From Reichenbachiella sp. 5M10 (lineage in GTDB: Bacteria > Bacteroidota > Bacteroidia > Cytophagales > Cyclobacteriaceae): 64,000 nucleotides of DNA. The position numbers were made by a program, and so were the translations under genes. Below, piece by piece: positions 3,042-13,389 of the stretch (positions within the stretch are counted from its first letter, which is position 1; every line of letters begins with the position of its first letter). The notes under the pieces were generated by a model that made no database searches, was not told the DNA's origin, and saw only the letters and a program-made list of their open reading frames with translations. The stretch spans positions 2,050,501 to 2,114,500 of the forward strand of contig NZ_MDGR01000007.1 in the NCBI RefSeq assembly GCF_002742335.1. Reading direction: 5' to 3'.

Positions 3042-4376
3042 TTACTTCATCAATTTGTGAATGGCATCCTCTGCTTTATCAAAACCAAATCCTGCCAAAA
3101 CAGTCTTTAGCTTCGCTTCAACTTGATCATTGGCAGGATCCCCGATACTACCAAGATGCGTATGTTTCACTTCCTTAGAAAGCTTGTCAGACCCCTCTTG
3201 GATCGCTTGACCCACTTGGATATACGCATCTCTAAATGGTACACCTTGCAGTACTTGTCGATTGACTTCCTCTACACTGAATAGATCCTTGTACTTCTCA
3301 TCTTGAATGATACCGTCTTTGACCTTGATGTTCTTCATCGCAAAGATGGCTATCTCTAGAGTAGATTTCAGTTCATAGAAAGCAGGCAAAAAAGTCTCCT
3401 TGATCGTCTGCATATCTCTATGATAACCAGAAGGTAGATTGGTAGTGATCAAACTGATCTCAGTGCTAAGCGACTGCAGCTTGTTCATTTTTGCGCGGAT
3501 GAGCTCAAAGACATCCGGGTTCTTCTTGTGCGGCATGATACTAGACCCAGTCGTCATCTCTGCGGGCAACTCTAGAAATCCAAAATTCTGAGAGTTATAC
3601 AGACAGATATCCATGCTCATTCGTGCCAAGGTTGACGCGATGCTGTTCATGGCGAATGCCACTGTTTTCTCCACCTTGCCACGACTCATCTGCGCATAGA
3701 CGACATTGTAACTAAGATCATCAAACCCTAGTAAGTCGGTCGTCATCTGTCTATCGAGTGGAAATGAAGACCCGTAGCCTGCCCCTGAACCTAGCGGGTT
3801 TTGGTTGGTTACCTTGTAGGCCGCCTGCAAAAGATGCATATCATCGGTCAGACTCTCGGCATAAGCGCCAAACCACAACCCAAAAGATGAAGGCATAGCC
3901 ACCTGCAAATGCGTATAACCTGGTATCAGCACGTCCTTGTGCTGTTTGCTGAGGTCATTGAGTGTTATGAAGAGTTCCGTCACCAAATCAGCAATGGTTT
4001 TGATCTCATCACGGATAAACAAACGGAGATCAACCAAAACTTGGTCATTGCGCGAGCGACCACTGTGGATCTTCTTGCCTGTATCTCCTAGCTTTCGGGT
4101 CAGCATCAGTTCCACTTGTGAGTGAACGTCTTCTATACCATCCTCGATGACAAAATCACCTGCTTCGATGATGCCCAAAATCACTTTGAGTTCACGGTGT
4201 ACCTCGGTCAGCTCTGCTGACGTCAGCAGGTCGATACTCTCTAGCATCGTCGTATGCGCCATCGAGCCATATACGTCAAAGCGAGCCAACAACAAATCCA
4301 GTTCTCTGTCTCGTCCGACGGTGTAGTTTTCTATGTCCTTAGACACCTCTGTATTGCCTTTGTCCCAAAGTTTCAT
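3042..4376 (-). CDS. argH: argininosuccinate lyase
   Basis: 444 aa from the ATG at 4376; the upstream in-frame ATG at 4454 adds a low-quality extension. It splits argininosuccinate into arginine and fumarate, the last step of arginine synthesis. The fumarase/aspartase-superfamily signature GSSIMPHKKNP is present, as is the SGRSRNDQV active-site segment. It is last in the arginine operon but is separated from argE by about 150 bases, the largest gap in the cluster, so it may also have its own promoter. Confidence 0.95.
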   Translation of the reverse strand: MKLWDKGNTEVSKDIENYTVGRDRELDLLLARFDVYGSMAHTTMLESIDLLTSAELTEVHRELKVILGIIEAGDFVIEDGIEDVHSQVELMLTRKLGDTGKKIHSGRSRNDQVLVDLRLFIRDEIKTIADLVTELFITLNDLSKQHKDVLIPGYTHLQVAMPSSFGLWFGAYAESLTDDMHLLQAAYKVTNQNPLGSGAGYGSSFPLDRQMTTDLLGFDDLSYNVVYAQMSRGKVEKTVAFAMNSIASTLARMSMDICLYNSQNFGFLELPAEMTTGSSIMPHKKNPDVFELIRAKMNKLQSLSTEISLITTNLPSGYHRDMQTIKETFLPAFYELKSTLEIAIFAMKNIKVKDGIIQDEKYKDLFSVEEVNRQVLQGVPFRDAYIQVGQAIQEGSDKLSKEVKHTHLGSIGDPANDQVEAKLKTVLAGFGFDKAEDAIHKLMK

Positions 4377-4528
4377 GTTGTATTGCTTTTTCTTATTGAC
4401 CTGAGTCCTATTATCAAATATTGAAACACACTCATTAAATGTATTTTTTGTCACTATGCTTAAATATCATCCTCTCAACAAATCCCAGAGACTTTACAAA
4501 GCACTTTTATTAGTCTAACCCCTTCAAA

Positions 4529-5608
4529 CTATATCTCCAGCCCATCCAACAATTGGATGTAAAGCTGTATTCCTTTTTCGATCTCATCGACGTAGATGAA
4601 CTCATCTGCCGTATGCGACCTTGCCGAATCACCTGGGCCAATCTTGATGGAATCAAAAGGCATTAGGGCTTGGTCTGACATGGTTGGTGATCCATATTTT
4701 TTCATTCCTAAGTGATCCCCTCGCAGCACAATAGGATGCGTATTCGATATACCCGATGAGTTGAGTCGCAGCGACCGAGGCTTGAACTCCACGTCGATCT
4801 CACGCGCCAATATTTCTACAACCTCTTGGTTGGAGTAGGCGTCTGTAGTACGCACATCTAGAACGAACTTGCATGAGTCTGGCACGACGTTGTGTTGTGT
4901 ACCTGCTTCGATCAACGTGACAGTCTTCTTGATCGGTCCGAGGTAGTCCGATTCTTTCTCGAACTGATAGTTCTGCAATTTCTCTATTTCGGTCAGCGCC
5001 TTGTAGATGGCATTGACACCCTCATCACGTGCTGCATGACCACTCACTCCTTTGGCCTCACAGTCGATGACGATCAATCCCTTCTCGGCAATCGCCATAT
5101 CCATGAGTGTCGGTTCGCCTACTATAGCCAAATCGATTTTGCCTAAAACTGGCAACAGCGATGCTACGCCGTTGGCTCCTGACACTTCTTCCTCGGCTGT
5201 CGCTGCTAGAATCAGGTTGTAGGGCAAGTTTTCTTGTGCATGGAAATGCAGAAAGGTCAAAATCAACGAGACCAATGGACCGCCTGCATCATTACTCCCT
5301 AGACCGTGCAACTTGCCATCAATGATCTGCGCTTTGAATGGGTCCAATGTATAAGTCTTGGCAGGTTTGACCGTATCGATGTGGGAGTTCAAAAGTATCG
5401 TGGGTTTCTCATCAGAAAAATACTTGGATAGCGCCCAAATATTATTTCCCTGTTGCTGTACCTCTACTCCTTTTTCTTCCAAGAATGTTCGAACCACTCG
5501 GGCTACATTTTCTTCCTCGCGACTAAAAGACTGCGTCTCTATCATAGCCGCCAATAGTGCCACTGCCTCTCGAGTATACCTGTGATATGATGCGTCTATT
5601 TCAAGCAT
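4529..5608 (-). CDS. argE: M20-family deacylase, acylornithine/acylcitrulline deacylase (ArgE-like)
   Basis: 359 aa from the ATG at 5608, which overlaps the end of argB by 13 bases; the frame extends to 5665 but that would run deep into argB. M20 metallopeptidase motifs are visible: LNSHIDTVKP (His ligand), GLGSNDAGGPLVS (bridging Asp) and AATAEEEVSGANG (catalytic Glu pair). In the Bacteroidota pathway the acyl group is removed after carbamoylation, so the expected substrate is N-succinyl- or N-acetyl-citrulline rather than acylornithine. The operon position strongly supports a role in arginine synthesis; acyl specificity is inferred. Confidence 0.9.
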   Translation of the reverse strand: MLEIDASYHRYTREAVALLAAMIETQSFSREEENVARVVRTFLEEKGVEVQQQGNNIWALSKYFSDEKPTILLNSHIDTVKPAKTYTLDPFKAQIIDGKLHGLGSNDAGGPLVSLILTFLHFHAQENLPYNLILAATAEEEVSGANGVASLLPVLGKIDLAIVGEPTLMDMAIAEKGLIVIDCEAKGVSGHAARDEGVNAIYKALTEIEKLQNYQFEKESDYLGPIKKTVTLIEAGTQHNVVPDSCKFVLDVRTTDAYSNQEVVEILAREIDVEFKPRSLRLNSSGISNTHPIVLRGDHLGMKKYGSPTMSDQALMPFDSIKIGPGDSARSHTADEFIYVDEIEKGIQLYIQLLDGLEI

Positions 5609-6378
5609 AATGTCGTACCAGGATAATCCACAGATTGCACTTTGTCTAGTGCTTCGAAATGACATATTTTCACCGTATCAACGCCCGCATTGATCGCATC
5701 AAAAGCATTGTCGAGTTTAGGAATCATCCCATCGACAACCACACCTTCTTCCTTGTATTTGACATAACCCTCAGGAGTAATCTCAGGAATCACTACTTTG
5801 TTCTCAAAGTCACTCAATACCCCTGGCTGCTCAAAACAGTAGACTAAATCCACTTGATAGTGATCTGCTATGCCGCGAGCCAGTTCAGAAGCGATTGTAT
5901 CCGCATTGGTGTTGAGCAATTGACCTTGATTGTCATGCGTCAATGCACAGACTACTGGAACCATCCCCAAGTCAAACAAAGACTTCAAAAAAGAAGCATT
6001 AACTTCTTCTACATCACCTACATAACCATAATCAATGGTGGTAACACTTCTCTTGCGAGACCGAATGAGGTTTCCATCCGCCCCAGACACGCCAAGAGAC
6101 TGAATCCCAGCTGACTGTAGCTTGGCAACAATCTTTTTGTTGAGGCCACTAAAGACCATCGTCACGATATCGATAGCGTCTGCATCAGTGATGCGTCTCC
6201 CTTCGACCATTTTGGGCGGTATACCCATTTTGTTTTGCACGACAGAGGCGATATTCCCTCCCCCATGTACCAGTATTTTATTGCCCTTGAGTGCTGCGAA
6301 CTTCTTCAAAAAGATATCCAACTCAGCCTCTTCGTTGATGACTTTTCCTCCTATTTTGACAACTGTCAAAGACTCCAT
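5596..6378 (-). CDS. argB: N-acetylglutamate (or N-succinylglutamate) kinase
   Basis: 260 aa amino-acid-kinase fold protein. It phosphorylates the acylated glutamate, the second step of arginine synthesis. The N-terminal VVKIGGKVI and KILVHGGGN segments hold the phosphate-binding loop. The length is normal for ArgB. It lies 11 bases after argF' and overlaps argE by 13 bases, consistent with translational coupling. Succinyl rather than acetyl preference is inferred from the neighbouring argF'. Confidence 0.95.
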   Translation of the reverse strand: MESLTVVKIGGKVINEEAELDIFLKKFAALKGNKILVHGGGNIASVVQNKMGIPPKMVEGRRITDADAIDIVTMVFSGLNKKIVAKLQSAGIQSLGVSGADGNLIRSRKRSVTTIDYGYVGDVEEVNASFLKSLFDLGMVPVVCALTHDNQGQLLNTNADTIASELARGIADHYQVDLVYCFEQPGVLSDFENKVVIPEITPEGYVKYKEEGVVVDGMIPKLDNAFDAINAGVDTVKICHFEALDKVQSVDYPGTTLCLK

Positions 6379-6389
6379 TCTGTATTTGA

Positions 6390-7346
6390 TTATTTGATAT
6401 TGAGCAATTTCTGAAGCACGGCTTGTGCGGATGTGATACGATGATTAGCCTGTGCAATCACGATCGAACTGTCGTGATCCAACACACCGTCTGTCGCGAT
6501 AACATTGCGACGTATCGGCAGACAGTGCATGAACTTAGCCGCATTGGTCAACGCCATTTTTTCGGGTGTGATCGTCCATGTAGGATCTTGAGAAACAACC
6601 TGTCCATAGACCTCATCCTTGAAAGCCGACCAGTTCTTCGCATAGATAAAATCGGCTCCTTCAAAGGCCTTGTTTTGATCATACTCTACGGTTGCATTCC
6701 CTACGATTCCAGCTTCCAACTCATAGCCTTTGGGATGTGTCACGACCAATTCATAATCCATTCGATTGCTCCAGTTGAGAAACGAATTGGCTACAGCCTG
6801 AGGCAATGCTTTGGGGTGTGGTGCCCATGACAATACGACTCTAGGCTTATCGACTTTCTTGTATTCTTCGATCGTGATCATGTCTGCAAACGACTGCAAC
6901 GGATGAGAAGTGGCTGACTCCATGTTGATCACGGGTACCGAGCAGTGCTTGACGAACTGACTCAATATTTTCTCTTGATAGTCTTCCTGCTTATTGGTCA
7001 AAGAAGCAAAGGCTCTGATACCAATCGCATCAAAATAACTACTCATCACTCCTGCTGCCTCGATAATGTGCTCGCTCGTATTGCCGTTCATCACGACTCC
7101 ATCGCCGAACTCCAATTGCCAGCCTTCGGTATTGAGGTTGAAGATAAAAGACTCTATCCCCAAATTGAAAGATGCCTTTTGCATACTCAACCTCGTCCTC
7201 AGACTTGGATTGAAAAACAAAAGGCACACTGATTTCCCACTCTTAGCGAACGGGCCATCTCGCTCTATTTTTTTCTTTAACTCTACTGCACTTTGGATCC
7301 ACCCAACGGGATCATCTACATCATCGATCGAGCAAAAGTTTGTCAT
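6390..7346 (-). CDS. argF': N-succinylornithine (acylornithine) carbamoyltransferase
   Basis: 318 aa. The carbamoyl phosphate loop FFNPSLRTRLS (residues ~45-54) and HCLPIRRN near residue 275 identify the transcarbamylase superfamily. The form is that of the Bacteroidota enzymes acting on acylated ornithine: an alternative branch in which carbamoylation precedes deacylation. Classical OTCases carry STRTR at the equivalent loop, where this protein has SLRTR. Known work on the Bacteroides fragilis homologue showed a succinylornithine preference; the same is inferred here. It overlaps argD by four bases. Confidence 0.92.
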   Translation of the reverse strand: MTNFCSIDDVDDPVGWIQSAVELKKKIERDGPFAKSGKSVCLLFFNPSLRTRLSMQKASFNLGIESFIFNLNTEGWQLEFGDGVVMNGNTSEHIIEAAGVMSSYFDAIGIRAFASLTNKQEDYQEKILSQFVKHCSVPVINMESATSHPLQSFADMITIEEYKKVDKPRVVLSWAPHPKALPQAVANSFLNWSNRMDYELVVTHPKGYELEAGIVGNATVEYDQNKAFEGADFIYAKNWSAFKDEVYGQVVSQDPTWTITPEKMALTNAAKFMHCLPIRRNVIATDGVLDHDSSIVIAQANHRITSAQAVLQKLLNIK

Positions 7347-8467
7347 ACTAATTCTTTTATTGCATTGATTAAAATATCTGCGTCAGCCTTGGTCACCGTC
7401 ATCGGTGGCAACAATCGCAACACCTTCGGGTCTGTAGCTGCACCCGTAAATATCTTATATTTTTTCAACAATTCGCCTCTTAATTCCTTGACAGGCTCAT
7501 CAAACACCAAACCAAGTAACAATCCTTTGCCACGAACCGATTTGATCGCACTCACTCCTTCGAGTTCAGAGAGGATGTACTTCCCTATCTCTGTACTATT
7601 GCGCATCAAATCTTCATCTTTGATCACGTCCAGTACAGCATTGCCCGCCGCACATGCCAAATGATTGCCACCGAACGTTGTACCCAACTGACCAAAAGCC
7701 GCTTCAAAATCAGGAGTAATGATCACTCCACCTATCGGAAAACCGTTTCCCATACCTTTGGCGATGGTGATAATATCTGGTTGGATATTTGCATATTGGT
7801 GTGCAAAGAACTTACCCGTACGCCCATAACCTGACTGCACCTCGTCTAGTATAAATACAGTACCTGTCGCATGGCATGCTTCTTGGAGGCCTTCTAAAAA
7901 CTCAGCCCCTGGATCATTGATTCCTCCAATTCCTTGAATGCCTTCGATGATCACGCAAGCCACATCCTTGGCAGCCAAAGCATCTTTGACCCCTTCCAAG
8001 TCTCCTAGTTCAAACAATTGGATATTGTCTGTAAAGTTAACTGCGGCTTGAATCTTGGGGTTGTCAGTAGCTGCTACAGCGAGTGACGTACGTCCATGAA
8101 ATCCATTTTTGAAGGCAACAATCTTTCTTCTTCCGTTTTGGAATGAAGCCAGTTTCAAGGCATTCTCATTGGCCTCTGCACCTGAATTGCAGAGGAAGAG
8201 ATTGTAATCCTCATAGCCACTCAACTTACCGAGCTTTTCGCTCAATTCTTCTTGCTGTGGTATCACTACAGAGTTGGAATAGAATCCAATCTTACTCACC
8301 TGCTCTGTCAGTGCTTTCACGTAAGTAGGATGAGAGTGCCCTATTGAGATGACCGCATGACCACCATAGAAGTCAAGGTATTTTTCACCATCCGTATCGT
8401 ACACATAATTCCCCTCTCCTCTTTCGATGGTGATATCGAACAAAGGATAAACCTTGTAATTTTTCAT
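7343..8467 (-). CDS. argD: acetylornithine/succinylornithine aminotransferase
   Basis: 374 aa class-III PLP aminotransferase. It converts acylglutamate semialdehyde to acylornithine using glutamate. The cofactor lysine sits in ITIAKGMGNGFPIGG, and FILDEVQSGYGRTGKF holds the PLP-contacting aspartate. Length is slightly below the usual ~400 aa, with a compact N-terminus starting MKNYKVYPLFDI. It starts two bases after the proC stop and its end overlaps argF' by four bases, so it sits in the tightest part of the operon. Confidence 0.94.
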   Translation of the reverse strand: MKNYKVYPLFDITIERGEGNYVYDTDGEKYLDFYGGHAVISIGHSHPTYVKALTEQVSKIGFYSNSVVIPQQEELSEKLGKLSGYEDYNLFLCNSGAEANENALKLASFQNGRRKIVAFKNGFHGRTSLAVAATDNPKIQAAVNFTDNIQLFELGDLEGVKDALAAKDVACVIIEGIQGIGGINDPGAEFLEGLQEACHATGTVFILDEVQSGYGRTGKFFAHQYANIQPDIITIAKGMGNGFPIGGVIITPDFEAAFGQLGTTFGGNHLACAAGNAVLDVIKDEDLMRNSTEIGKYILSELEGVSAIKSVRGKGLLLGLVFDEPVKELRGELLKKYKIFTGAATDPKVLRLLPPMTVTKADADILINAIKELV

Positions 8468-8469
8468 TG

Positions 8470-9276
8470 TTATTTTTCGGTCATGATTTGAGATATCTTT
8501 TCGTAGGATTTCATCAATCCTTTGATCAATGCAGAGCTAAGTCCTTCGTGCTCCATTTCGTTCAACCCTGAGATGGTACAGCCCTGTGGAGTCGTCACTT
8601 TATCTATTTCTTCTTCTGGATGATTACCTGATTCGAGGAGAAGCGTCGCTGCACCCATACACGCTTGAGTCGCCATATGCTTGGCCTCTGGTGCATCAAA
8701 CCCAAGTTGAATGGCTCCCTGCGTCGTAGCTCTGATCAGTCGCATCCAAAACGCAATCCCACTCGCACACACCACCGTAGCAGCCTGCATCTTGTTCTCA
8801 TCAATGACCAGTGTCTCACCCATTGCATTGAAAATCTCCTCTGCCAAACCGATCTTAGCCTTGCCTGTTCCGTTGGTAGAGAGGCAGGTCATCGATTCTC
8901 CTACTGAGATCGCAGTGTTCGGCATACTACGAATGATCGCCACTTTGTTGCCGACAATTTCGGCAATCTCACTGATCTTGCGGCCTGTGATCGTTGAGAT
9001 CAATACATGTCTCTTCTCGTCTAGTTCATCCTTTATTTCATTTAGGATTGTATTGATCTGACTCGGTTGCACACACAGAATGATGATATCCGAAGCCCTC
9101 ACTGCATCAATATTGGATGGAGTCACCAGTACATGAGGATGCTTTTTCCAACCATCGAGATTAGAGACATTCCTTTTGGTCAGTACCAGTTGCTCTATGT
9201 CAAAATTGGTTTGGTCTACGAGTCCTTGTGCAATCGACAATCCTAAGTTTCCTACTCCTATTAATGCAATTTTCAT
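8470..9276 (-). CDS. proC: pyrroline-5-carboxylate reductase
   Basis: 268 aa. The N-terminal Rossmann motif GVGNLGLSIAQG binds NAD(P)H. The C-terminal P5CR dimerisation domain carries TTPQGCTISGLNEMEH, matching the family signature. It reduces pyrroline-5-carboxylate to proline. Placement between argC and argD is typical of Bacteroidota arginine operons and may let ornithine- or glutamate-semialdehyde-derived P5C be drawn into proline in step with arginine flux (inference). Confidence 0.93.
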   Translation of the reverse strand: MKIALIGVGNLGLSIAQGLVDQTNFDIEQLVLTKRNVSNLDGWKKHPHVLVTPSNIDAVRASDIIILCVQPSQINTILNEIKDELDEKRHVLISTITGRKISEIAEIVGNKVAIIRSMPNTAISVGESMTCLSTNGTGKAKIGLAEEIFNAMGETLVIDENKMQAATVVCASGIAFWMRLIRATTQGAIQLGFDAPEAKHMATQACMGAATLLLESGNHPEEEIDKVTTPQGCTISGLNEMEHEGLSSALIKGLMKSYEKISQIMTEK

Positions 9277-9319: not shown

Positions 9320-10285
9320 TTAAAATCCTACGCTCTTGAGCTGTAGTCCTGTTTTTTGATCCAATCCAAACATTAAATTCATATTCTGAACAGCTTGTCC
9401 AGAAGCTCCTTTGACCAAGTTATCGATACATGAAGTCACCAAAACGGTATCTCCATGCTTCTCCACATGGATCAAACATTTGTTGGTGTTGACCACTTGT
9501 TTCATATCAGGTGCATAGTCCAACACGTGGACGAATGCAGCATCCTTATAAAACTCCCTATACATCTCGATCACTTCCTCTTCACTGAGCGTACATTTGG
9601 TGTACAAGCTAGCAAAAATCCCTCTTGGGAAATTGCCACGGACTGGGAGAAATTTCACCTCATGACCGTAATCACTTTGCAACTGCTGAATCGACTGATT
9701 GATCTCACCTAGGTGCTGATGGCTAAATGCCTTATAGATCGATACGTTATTGTTTCTCCAACTGAAATGGCTCGTTTTACTTGGGTTTTGCCCCGCTCCT
9801 GTGGATCCTGTAATTGCATTGACATGTACATCCTCGTTCAACTCGCCATTGGCTGCTAGTGGTAGAATCCCCAATTGGATCGCCGTAGCAAAACAGCCAG
9901 GATTGGCTATTTTAGTTGCCTTCTTGATCGCTCCCAAATTCAGCTCAGGCAATCCATATACAAAACCATCGGCATCAGCCTTGAGTCGGTATTCATTGCT
10001 CAAATCTATGATCTTGACACCTGCTGGGATATCATTCCCTTCCACAAACGTACGCGAGTGACCGTGCCCTGAGCAGATAAATAATACGTCTACATCAAAA
10101 TTTAGCTGATCCGTAAAGTCTCCTTCTATATCTCCCACGAGATCCTTGTGTACCGAATCAATCGAATTACCTGCATTGCTCGTACTGTGTACGAAAGCTA
10201 CATCCGTCTCCGGATGCCCTGCCAATACTCTCAACAACTCACCTGCTGTATAGCCAGCTCCACCTATTATCCCTACTTTAATCAT
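9320..10285 (-). CDS. argC: N-acyl-gamma-glutamyl-phosphate reductase
   Basis: 321 aa. It reduces acylglutamyl phosphate to the semialdehyde. The N-terminal GIIGGAGYTAGELLRVL is the NADP-binding Rossmann motif with the ArgC-specific GYTG-like variation, and NPGCFATAIQLGILPL contains the catalytic cysteine. Length is normal. The start overlaps the end of argG by eight bases, supporting one transcript. Confidence 0.95.
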   Translation of the reverse strand: MIKVGIIGGAGYTAGELLRVLAGHPETDVAFVHSTSNAGNSIDSVHKDLVGDIEGDFTDQLNFDVDVLFICSGHGHSRTFVEGNDIPAGVKIIDLSNEYRLKADADGFVYGLPELNLGAIKKATKIANPGCFATAIQLGILPLAANGELNEDVHVNAITGSTGAGQNPSKTSHFSWRNNNVSIYKAFSHQHLGEINQSIQQLQSDYGHEVKFLPVRGNFPRGIFASLYTKCTLSEEEVIEMYREFYKDAAFVHVLDYAPDMKQVVNTNKCLIHVEKHGDTVLVTSCIDNLVKGASGQAVQNMNLMFGLDQKTGLQLKSVGF

Positions 10286-11465
10286 TGTTAATCGAGCTAT
10301 AAATTTTCGTTTGGTTTGCTAATATCTTTGTAAAGCCTTTGACATCTTCACCCGACCATCCGTTGTTCATTTCACCATACTGCCCAAAATCCGATGACAT
10401 CAGATCCTTGTCAGATTCGATCCCTATCACTTGGAAACGGTAAGGTGCCAATTTTACTTTAACAGTCCCTGTAACGTTTCGCTGCGTATTTTCTAAAAAC
10501 ACTTCAATATCTCTCATCACTGGATCTAAAAACTGCCCTTCGTGTAGTAGCATTCCGTACCAGTTGGCCAGTTGCTCCTTCCAGTGTTGTTGCCACTTGG
10601 TCAAGTTGTGCTTCTCTAACAGGTGGTGTGCCTTCAATATCACGACCGGTGCTGCTGCCTCGAATCCCACACGACCTTTGATTCCGATGATCGTATCCCC
10701 GACATGCACATCACGTCCGATTCCGTACTTGGAAGCAATATCGTTGAGCGTTTCGATCACCTCGACCGCCCCCATAGTCTTGCCATTGAGACCTGTCAAC
10801 TGACCTTTATCGAAAGACAAGACCACTTCTTCACTTCCCTCCTTTTCTACTTGGCTAGGATAGGCCTCTTCGGGCAATGTCAAATTAGACGTCAAAGTCT
10901 CGTCACCTCCAACTGAAGTCCCCCACAATCCTCTGTTGATCGAGTATTTGGCTTTCTCCCAAGAGATATTGACACCCTTTTCTTTCAAATATTCTATTTC
11001 CGCCTGACGCGAAAGTTTGTTATCTCTGATCGGTGTAATTATCTCTACATCTGGACAGATTATTTGGAATATCAAATCAAAACGCACTTGGTCGTTGCCT
11101 GCGCCTGTGCTACCGTGCGCGATATAATCTGCATTGATAGACTTGGCATATTTAGCAATCGCCAAAGCCTGAAACGCTCGTTCAGCACTCACTGACAAGG
11201 GGTAAGTATTGTTTTTCAAGACATTGCCATAGATCAAATACTTGAGGCATTCGTCATAGAAGTCCTGAGTTTTTTCGAGATTGACATGCTCCACTACACC
11301 GTATGATCTCGCCCTGCTTTCGGCCTCTGCCATTTGCTCAGCAGTAAACCCTCCCGTATTGACAAGAGCGGTATATACATCCAGATTCAAACCTTGTAAA
11401 TAGAAAGCGCAATACGTGGTGTCCAATCCACCACTGAAGGCCAATACTACTTTTTTGTTACTCAT
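10278..11465 (-). CDS. argG: argininosuccinate synthase
   Basis: 395 aa. It joins citrulline and aspartate at the cost of ATP. The PP-loop motif LAFSGGLDTTY is at the N-terminus and AHGSTGAGNDQVRF is the nucleotide/citrulline-contacting segment. TTY replaces the TSV/TSI seen in many orthologues after SGGLD; this looks like a lineage variant, not damage. It overlaps the preceding GNAT gene by four bases (ATGA) and argC by eight. Confidence 0.95.
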   Translation of the reverse strand: MSNKKVVLAFSGGLDTTYCAFYLQGLNLDVYTALVNTGGFTAEQMAEAESRARSYGVVEHVNLEKTQDFYDECLKYLIYGNVLKNNTYPLSVSAERAFQALAIAKYAKSINADYIAHGSTGAGNDQVRFDLIFQIICPDVEIITPIRDNKLSRQAEIEYLKEKGVNISWEKAKYSINRGLWGTSVGGDETLTSNLTLPEEAYPSQVEKEGSEEVVLSFDKGQLTGLNGKTMGAVEVIETLNDIASKYGIGRDVHVGDTIIGIKGRVGFEAAAPVVILKAHHLLEKHNLTKWQQHWKEQLANWYGMLLHEGQFLDPVMRDIEVFLENTQRNVTGTVKVKLAPYRFQVIGIESDKDLMSSDFGQYGEMNNGWSGEDVKGFTKILANQTKIYSSINND

Positions 11466-12085
11466 TTCTTCTTCTGTTTTCTTTGATTCTTGAAATTTGC
11501 TAGACGCTGAAAACGCTTGGCAATGATTCCTTTTTCTTTGATTACAAATTTATTGGAAGCCTCGTGAAGAAGCATCCCCGTACAGAGACAATTTCTGCGT
11601 TCATTTCTTTCTAGTATATCATAATTGGGACAACTACGACATCCATTCCAAAATTCCGTGTCTGTTGTCAGTTCTGAAAACGTCACTGGTCGGTAGCCCA
11701 GTTCATAGTTGATTTTCAATACCGCCAAACTAGTGGTGATACCAAAAATCTTTGTTCCTGGAAATTTCTCTTTGGAAAGTTTGAGAACCTTGAGTTTAAT
11801 CTTCTTGGCCAACCCTAGATTTCGAAAATCTGGATGCACAACGAGACCGGAGTTAGCAAGGTACTCCTTGTTTTGCCAGGTCTCAATGTATACGAAACCC
11901 GCCAAGTCCCCCTTGTCACTCAAAGCGATAACCGCTTCACCATTGTTGATTTTCTTCTCGATGTATTTTGGATCGCGTTTAGCAATCCCAGTACCTCGCG
12001 CTTTTGCTGCGGATTCAATCAACTCACATATAGCTTGGGCATATTTAGCATGCTCAGGCGTTGCATAATGCACATCAACGTTCAT
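11462..12085 (-). CDS. GNAT N-acyltransferase with C-terminal cysteine cluster, first gene of the arginine operon
   Basis: 207 aa. Residues ~1-135 form a GNAT domain; VVHPDFRNLGLAKKI (83-97) has the basic acyl-CoA pyrophosphate loop. After it comes Cys149-x2-Cys152-x13-Cys166-x-Cys168, a spacing suited to a zinc or iron-sulfur site, followed by a Lys/Arg-rich tail. It overlaps argG by four bases and so is translationally coupled to the arginine genes. No argA- or argJ-like gene is in the operon, so this protein is a good candidate for the glutamate N-acetyl- or N-succinyltransferase opening the pathway. That function is inference; the GNAT fold and cluster are seen. Confidence 0.85.
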   Translation of the reverse strand: MNVDVHYATPEHAKYAQAICELIESAAKARGTGIAKRDPKYIEKKINNGEAVIALSDKGDLAGFVYIETWQNKEYLANSGLVVHPDFRNLGLAKKIKLKVLKLSKEKFPGTKIFGITTSLAVLKINYELGYRPVTFSELTTDTEFWNGCRSCPNYDILERNERRNCLCTGMLLHEASNKFVIKEKGIIAKRFQRLANFKNQRKQKKK

Positions 12086-12429: not shown

Positions 12430-13389
12430 TCAAAGAGTGGCCAATTGCTGGGTAAACCAAGCATATTCTTCTCGAACATCTACTACGTCCTTCCATACAG
12501 AAAGTTTTGCTTGAGTTTGCAATAAAAATTGGCGATGTGCTGCAGTATGTGGATTGAAAGGTCGGTGAGCCATCGCTCTTCGAATCAACTCCCACTGCTT
12601 GACAAACTCCTGGCTTGCATCATCCAGTGCAACCTGCTCAAAGCAACTCCAAATATAATCTTCTGCCTCCGCTGTAGGATGAAGCCTATCAGACTTGTAG
12701 AAGCGGTAGTCCCGCAGATCATCCATCATTATTTCGTATGCGGGGAAGTAGTACACTCCATTGCGATGAGTCAGTTGAGCGCAAAGCACACGAAGCATAG
12801 ACTTGCTCAACTGGTCTTGGACCATGCCGTCCTTGAGGTGACGCACAGGGCTGACAGTCAATATCACCTTCAATTTAGGATTATCCCGCAACAGCATATC
12901 TAGAAGCTCCTCCACAGTACTCTTCATTTCTTCGAGCGACAGCATGCGCTTGTCAAACAAAGACTGGGGTTGCTTGTGGCAATTTGCGACTACTAGGCCA
13001 TTTAGCTCGTATACCGTCGCACTACCTAATGTGATTATCAACCAATCTGCAGATCGTAGATAGCGCTGTACCTCCTGCTTCTTTTTATTGATATGCTCTA
13101 TCAGTTGCTCTTGACTGTCTGCCCGTAAATCAAAATGATAGTCATAGTGACAAAACATGCCATCACGCTCCACAAAAAGCGACTCTTCGAGTGGGGCCAA
13201 CACTCTAACCAAAGAAACAGGGTTAAAAATCACACCAAATGGATTGACCAGAGCATCGAACTTGAATTGTTGCAAACGTTCACCCATACCCTGTGCAAAA
13301 CAAGAGCCTAGCGTCACGATCTGCTGACCAATCCGGACGGACTCTTTCAGTGGTTTGAGATCAATATCGGTTTTGAGAGGGCATAGCAT
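12430..13389 (-). CDS. GSCFA family protein
   Basis: 319 aa. The family-naming motif GSCFAQGMGERL appears at residues ~28-39, and ILTVSPVRHLKDG, TLGSATVYE and SDRLHPTAEAEDYIW follow, the last resembling the DxxH block of SGNH/GDSL-type hydrolases. No signal peptide, so probably cytoplasmic. GSCFA proteins are common in Bacteroidota; their substrate is not known to me. It is a lone minus-strand gene read toward the arginine operon. Confidence 0.85.
   Translation of the reverse strand: MLCPLKTDIDLKPLKESVRIGQQIVTLGSCFAQGMGERLQQFKFDALVNPFGVIFNPVSLVRVLAPLEESLFVERDGMFCHYDYHFDLRADSQEQLIEHINKKKQEVQRYLRSADWLIITLGSATVYELNGLVVANCHKQPQSLFDKRMLSLEEMKSTVEELLDMLLRDNPKLKVILTVSPVRHLKDGMVQDQLSKSMLRVLCAQLTHRNGVYYFPAYEIMMDDLRDYRFYKSDRLHPTAEAEDYIWSCFEQVALDDASQEFVKQWELIRRAMAHRPFNPHTAAHRQFLLQTQAKLSVWKDVVDVREEYAWFTQQLATL

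Follow-up and report, generated by a model that had tools for sequence, protein, structure and literature searches.

The first gene of the arginine operon in the window, by which we mean the whole 64,000-nucleotide stretch of DNA analysed here, is a member of the described ArgA2 family and not an orphan. Very probably it encodes the enzyme with which Bacteroidota begin the succinyl-arginine pathway, an N-acylglutamate synthase. Its four cysteines would form a structural site for which zinc is the likely metal. An earlier note on this DNA had put forward the protein, a GNAT, as the first enzyme of arginine synthesis. Family membership, operon and co-occurrence support this assignment well, although the idea is not a new one, as the role has already been proposed under the name ArgA2. 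The family is described and, according to our literature search, biochemically almost unassayed, and it stands at the start of arginine synthesis in one of the major bacterial phyla. The stronger lead, and the most interesting outcome of the survey reported here, is a candidate replacement enzyme in genomes that lack the GNAT.

The arginine operon and its first gene

The operon is located on the minus strand in the order argA2-argG-argC-proC-argD-argF'-argB-argE-argH and comprises the following features:

11462..12085, minus strand: argA2, a 207-aa open reading frame with ATG start; GNAT with four-cysteine insertion, probable N-succinylglutamate synthase
11462..11465, minus strand: ATGA, four bases shared by the argA2 stop and the argG start
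10278..11465, minus strand: argG, argininosuccinate synthase (TIGR00032, 272.1 bits, cut-off 268.2)
9320..10285, minus strand: argC, N-acyl-gamma-glutamyl-phosphate reductase (TIGR01850, above cut-off)
8470..9276, minus strand: proC, pyrroline-5-carboxylate reductase (TIGR00112, above cut-off)
7343..8467, minus strand: argD, acylornithine aminotransferase (TIGR00707, 363 bits, below the cut-off of 410)
6390..7346, minus strand: argF', N-succinylornithine carbamoyltransferase type (best PDB match 1js1; S91, P182, I283)
5596..6378, minus strand: argB, acylglutamate kinase (TIGR00761, above cut-off)
4529..5665, minus strand: argE/dapE-type M20 deacylase, probable N-succinylcitrulline desuccinylase (TIGR01910, 156 bits, below the cut-off of 217.6)
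3042..4454, minus strand: argH, argininosuccinate lyase (TIGR00838, above cut-off)

As had been claimed, the operon lacks none of the steps between acylglutamate kinase and argininosuccinate lyase, both included, and it also contains proC. The start codon of the argE reading frame is uncertain, and in its full length it overlaps that of argB by 70 bases. The GNAT is indeed the first gene of the operon, since the nearest upstream reading frame of at least 90 aa on the same strand (12430-13389, a GSCFA protein) lies 344 bases away, and its four-base overlap with argG could be confirmed. The reported lack of a recognisable argA or argJ extends to the entire genome (4.64 Mb, 98.6% complete): ArgJ (PF01960), which belongs to an unrelated family and fills the same pathway step as ArgA2, has no match in it, and the sole match to the ArgA model (TIGR01890) is argB itself.

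The window protein is recognised by the GNAT model PF00583 with 28.3 bits (cut-off 20.7). In a scan against NCBIfam no model, that of ArgA included, exceeded its cut-off, and the matches were generic or weak GNAT models. A search for a specific family model in NCBIfam and Pfam likewise returned generic GNAT models, with NF005840 matching 22 of 28 members weakly. Two annotated records name the family protein merely GNAT family N-acetyltransferase.

In excerpts of PMC7311316, BT3761 of Bacteroides thetaiotaomicron is placed in arginine synthesis by fitness data and considered a probable N-succinylglutamate synthase (GapMind); there it is also given as more than 50% identical to Cabys_1732, and the same pathway is identified in Echinicola and Pedobacter. 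The family name ArgA2 is found in PMC9026213. An extract of it states that each of the 194 Bacteroidetes genomes in its set that have no ArgA carries a family member, and that the defect of BT3761 was rescued by arginine. BT3761 is also mentioned in a portion of PMC9765024, in a different context. Cabys_1732 of Caldithrix abyssi resembles the window gene in being the first gene of its arg locus (argAGCBEH) and differs in its reported substrate: part of PMC5317091 refers to it, from unpublished results, as a newly characterised N-acetylglutamate synthase isoform, limited to Bacteroidetes and C. abyssi. An enzyme assay of a Bacteroidota member of ArgA2 was not found in our literature search.

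With BT3761 (Q8A1A5) the window gene shares the position of the GNAT before argG-argC-argD, the pathway, the missing ArgA and ArgJ, and the succinyl-type carbamoyltransferase. For the detailed comparison a homologue from Bacteroides finegoldii, located in the neighbourhood argR-GNAT-argG-argC-argD-proC, stands in for BT3761. It is 48% identical to the window protein over residues 2-185 and has the same four cysteines. The arrangement differs in two aspects: argR directly precedes the GNAT gene in B. finegoldii and 12 bases separate the latter from argG, whereas in the window no argR is found directly upstream and the two genes overlap.

Outside the genus, the top matches of the window ArgA2 and ArgF' belong to another family, f23 (best 66% and 59-60% identity, respectively), and other genera of the window's own family score lower (up to 56% for ArgA2 and up to 54% for ArgF'). 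That f23 outranks these genera suggests that the operon may have been exchanged between families.

The four-cysteine segment

Two segments of the GNAT protein are of particular relevance:

11582..11686, minus strand: residues 134-168, located between the last two strands of the GNAT fold and carrying Cys149, Cys152, Cys166 and Cys168 (from positions, invariance and model secondary structure)
11975..11998, minus strand: R30-G-T-G-I-A-x-R37 motif, a putative acceptor-binding segment; R30, G33, I34 and R37 occur in 137 of 137 members

The cluster Cys149-x2-Cys152-x13-Cys166-x-Cys168 had been described exactly, and the only further cysteine of the window protein is Cys20. To judge its conservation we used a set of 137 family members, namely eight from the window genus (its own genome included), 29 further loci from the phylum survey and 100 fetched stretches, six of which are second copies. 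All four cysteines are kept in all 137. A scan of genome contigs supplied 80 named loci, of which 79 align with all four cysteines and the remaining one is truncated by its contig end. The cluster is far beyond chance and a genuine invariant feature of the family. Further positions without exception in the 137 members include S79, G80, L81, R88, K97, N126, G130, W146 and N154.

An AlphaFold2 model of the window protein (pLDDT 89.6) has the GNAT fold. The cysteines are located in a confidently predicted segment between the strands 131-134 and 169-173, with short helices in between, and a C-terminal helix (185-206) is distinct from them. Solved GNAT domains align structurally with the model from residue 1 to about 177 and hence through both flanking strands, which makes the cluster an insertion inside the fold. 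The earlier placement of the cluster after the acyltransferase core does not agree with this model. Of the proposed metal-bound tail, the invariant cysteines and a plausible metal site stand, but the site lies within the fold and is no tail.

We consider metal binding by the four cysteines plausible. The site would be structural, most likely for zinc, and could pin the segment between the two strands near the acceptor pocket. The cysteines might instead, with no metal site, control entry into the pathway as a redox or disulfide switch, and their invariance and the two possible pairs would fit such a role. We regard this as quite unlikely, since the cysteines are alike in many other genera and in the Bacteroides relatives, which are anaerobes, and since the pattern C-x2-C ... 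C-x-C resembles metal knuckles. The spacing is exactly C-x2-C-x13-C-x-C in 207 of 217 sequences. Apart from one truncated sequence the exceptions are nine Bacteroidales sequences with a longer first spacing, and that four cysteines still align in these nine also speaks against a switch. A description of a metal or four-cysteine site in this GNAT family was not found in our literature search, nor was a solved structure of the ArgA2 family found among the sequence matches to solved structures.

The best Foldseek match of the model is the GNAT domain of the Neisseria N-acetylglutamate synthase (NAGS) 2r8v (Z 17.0, rmsd 2.9, 152 aligned residues), a classical ArgA of the type also found in E. coli. 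In contrast to classical ArgA, the window protein, with 207 aa in all, has no kinase-like N-terminal domain and no match to TIGR01890. Rv2747, the ArgA of Mycobacterium tuberculosis (5yge, 5yo2), follows at Z 16.1; like the window protein it is a stand-alone GNAT, and it was solved with AcCoA and glutamate. It differs in sequence: identity is 13-17% in the structural alignments, and a sequence search at E up to 1 did not return it. As Ard1 and other GNATs lie within one Z unit of the NAGS matches, the fold is compatible with the proposed activity rather than diagnostic of it.

In six genomes (L125, L128, L131, L133, L136, L137) a second four-cysteine GNAT of the family is found outside the arg operon, and the cysteines by themselves are consequently no marker of this activity. 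Four of these six copies form one group in a quick tree, on which our statements about the grouping of second copies and fusions rest, and the copy in L137 has an argE-like gene directly downstream.

Pathway type and distribution in the phylum

The acyl group handled by the pathway may be read from its carbamoyltransferase. The best PDB match of the window ArgF' is the transcarbamylase 1js1 (E 3e-110), which we take to be the N-succinylornithine carbamoyltransferase of Bacteroides fragilis; this would fit the source cited next. In an excerpt of PMC4581275, acetyl enzymes carry Glu, Asn and Lys at three positions, and succinyl enzymes A/S/P/V/Q, P and V/I/E. The window ArgF' has S91, P182 and I283 and is of the succinyl type at all three. 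We further read 48 other argF' sequences from 48 of the 145 argF' genomes described below, one of which ends before the second and third positions. The acetyl-type Glu at the first, key position occurs in none of them. At the first position five sequences depart from the succinyl set with Thr and one with Gly; two do so with Ala at the second, and two with the acetyl-type Lys at the third. An acetyl-type carbamoyltransferase in genomes where the GNAT is absent or far from argG was considered and rejected on the same count, 0 of 48 with Glu at the key position.

ArgA2 would acylate L-glutamate at its alpha-amino group, using an acyl-CoA that is most likely succinyl-CoA. The succinylated intermediate would then pass through ArgB, ArgC, ArgD and ArgF', the N-succinylornithine carbamoyltransferase, the ArgE-like hydrolase would take off the succinyl group, and ArgG and ArgH would complete arginine.

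The donor of ArgA2 could be acetyl or succinyl, as Cabys_1732 is called an N-acetylglutamate synthase in part of PMC5317091. The same family in the same pathway might thus be an N-acetylglutamate synthase, or use both donors, with succinyl specificity set only later. In favour of this are the identity of more than 50% between Cabys_1732 and BT3761 noted in PMC7311316 (seen in excerpt), the acetyl-CoA-dependent NAGS among the structural neighbours, and the two argF' sequences with the acetyl-type Lys. Given the three succinyl-type residues of the window ArgF' and the lack of Glu at the key position in the 48 others, we judge an acetyl donor to be unlikely and prefer the succinyl donor for ArgA2.

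The distribution of the GNAT was surveyed in a single sample of the phylum, comprising 296 genomes, with argF' counted at E up to 1e-40. The GNAT occurs in 124 genomes, argF' in 145 and ArgJ in 122; 31 have none of the three. Every one of the 124 GNAT genomes also has argF', and 123 of them are without ArgJ, the exception being G234. Without correction for relatedness, Fisher's test yields p = 9e-62 for the association of GNAT with argF' and p = 4e-40 for the exclusion of ArgJ by GNAT. The earlier note had asked whether Bacteroidota with argF' and without argA always keep this gene: 124 of 145 argF' genomes do, but the other 21 do not, and in their arg operons another protein is encoded between argG and argC.

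In 104 of the 124 genomes the start of an argG match lies no more than 500 bases downstream of the GNAT, in three the two are fused, and in 17 there is no argG that near. Eight operons from genomes with a distant GNAT and without the P-loop gene described below were inspected; argG and argC are adjacent in seven, and the eighth stretch stops before argG.

These data also bear on the possibility that the GNAT is an accessory acyltransferase, e.g. for proteins or antibiotics, which resides in the operon by chance while another enzyme provides acylglutamate. The generic or weak models that match it would allow for this. Against it stand the lack of ArgA and ArgJ in the window's own genome, its near-perfect association with argF' and its exclusion of ArgJ, the fusions with ArgG, and the published Bacteroides fitness data (PMC7311316 and PMC9026213, both in part), and we consider an accessory role highly improbable. 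ArgA2 as the first enzyme of the pathway remains our preferred explanation.

Fusions of the GNAT with argininosuccinate synthase (584-588 aa) were observed in L051, L054 and L092, which belong to the same genome family, and in L208 and L215, with L208 apparently on the same contig as L054. The three survey fusions group together in the quick tree and L215, from a Bacteroidales genome, falls apart from them; a single origin of L215 and the other fusions is possible. ArgJ is combined with an argF' operon in G234 (L041) and G230 (L277), and in the latter, which also has the P-loop operon, about 2.5 kb separate ArgJ from a second ArgB-like gene. Candidatus Azobacteroides pseudotrichonymphae (L182) has kept the four-cysteine GNAT with argG downstream.

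A P-loop protein in genomes that lack the GNAT

Of the 21 argF' genomes without the GNAT, 20 are also without ArgJ, G230 being the one that has it. A more sensitive profile search of the 21 recovered no missed GNAT. The ArgA model, which was searched in the window's own genome and in these 21, found no classical ArgA above cut-off. What all 21 have in common is a protein of about 355 aa with a P-loop (GTSMNTGKT in L262), encoded for example at:

L262:12569-13630, minus strand: P-loop protein gene; same operon position in 22 genomes (L259-L278, L287, L288)

At E up to 1e-100 the protein occurs in 22 of the 296 genomes, namely the 21 and G037, which has the P-loop gene in the arg operon and the GNAT outside of it; the weaker matches, near 1e-21, represent distant relatives. 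Among the 145 genomes with argF' this amounts to 21 of 21 without GNAT compared to 1 of 124 with GNAT (Fisher p = 2e-24). In all 22 the gene is found between argG and argC, in the order argG-X-argC-argD-argF'-argB. A similar alternation is seen within a single family, f29, for which 27 genomes were included, six of them part of the first sample: the GNAT is found in five and the P-loop protein in 19, in one case only a part of it, while no genome has both and three have neither. Two of the latter three are less than 80% complete and the third is 95% complete.

Six members of the P-loop family were compared with Pfam and NCBIfam, and no model reached its cut-off. For 20 members, the Pfam models that came closest (E up to 0.01) were DUF1611_C (16 members), CbiA (9) and MobB (8), and the nearest solved structure, weakly, is BioD. 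DgcN, a DUF1611 protein, is reportedly a D-glutamate N-acetyltransferase, a function that our literature search did not confirm. Our literature search returned nothing on the P-loop protein, an assay included.

The simplest reading of this pattern is that the P-loop protein probably replaces ArgA2 in a non-orthologous manner, with its activity deduced from gene content and position. One must keep in mind that the NAT part of the ArgA model finds weak matches in 10 of the 21 genomes, where a short ArgA of another type is possible, and that G230 also carries ArgJ; both speak against a replacement. On balance we lean towards two interchangeable, unrelated first enzymes: the four-cysteine GNAT, and a P-loop protein that would make N-succinylglutamate either from succinyl-CoA or as a ligase. 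In the boldest version the P-loop protein would be an ATP-dependent glutamate-succinate ligase; to our knowledge such chemistry has no precedent for this step. If the replacement is confirmed, lineages without ArgA2 would have their first step filled by a glutamate N-acyltransferase or ligase whose fold would be new among the enzymes of this step.

Both proteins were also sought outside the surveyed genomes. The viral contigs contained one GNAT relative and no relative of the P-loop protein; this GNAT relative, with 56% identity, is located at L298:5001-5522 on an IMG/VR contig of 348 kb, which may be viral or host DNA. Plasmid records yielded distant P-loop relatives only; where more than half of the query was aligned, identity did not exceed 30%. 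Distant P-loop relatives with 25-26% identity are also present in L284, L285 and L286, each with a gene directly upstream on the same strand that by eye resembles an M20 peptidase, and the one in L286 matches argE.
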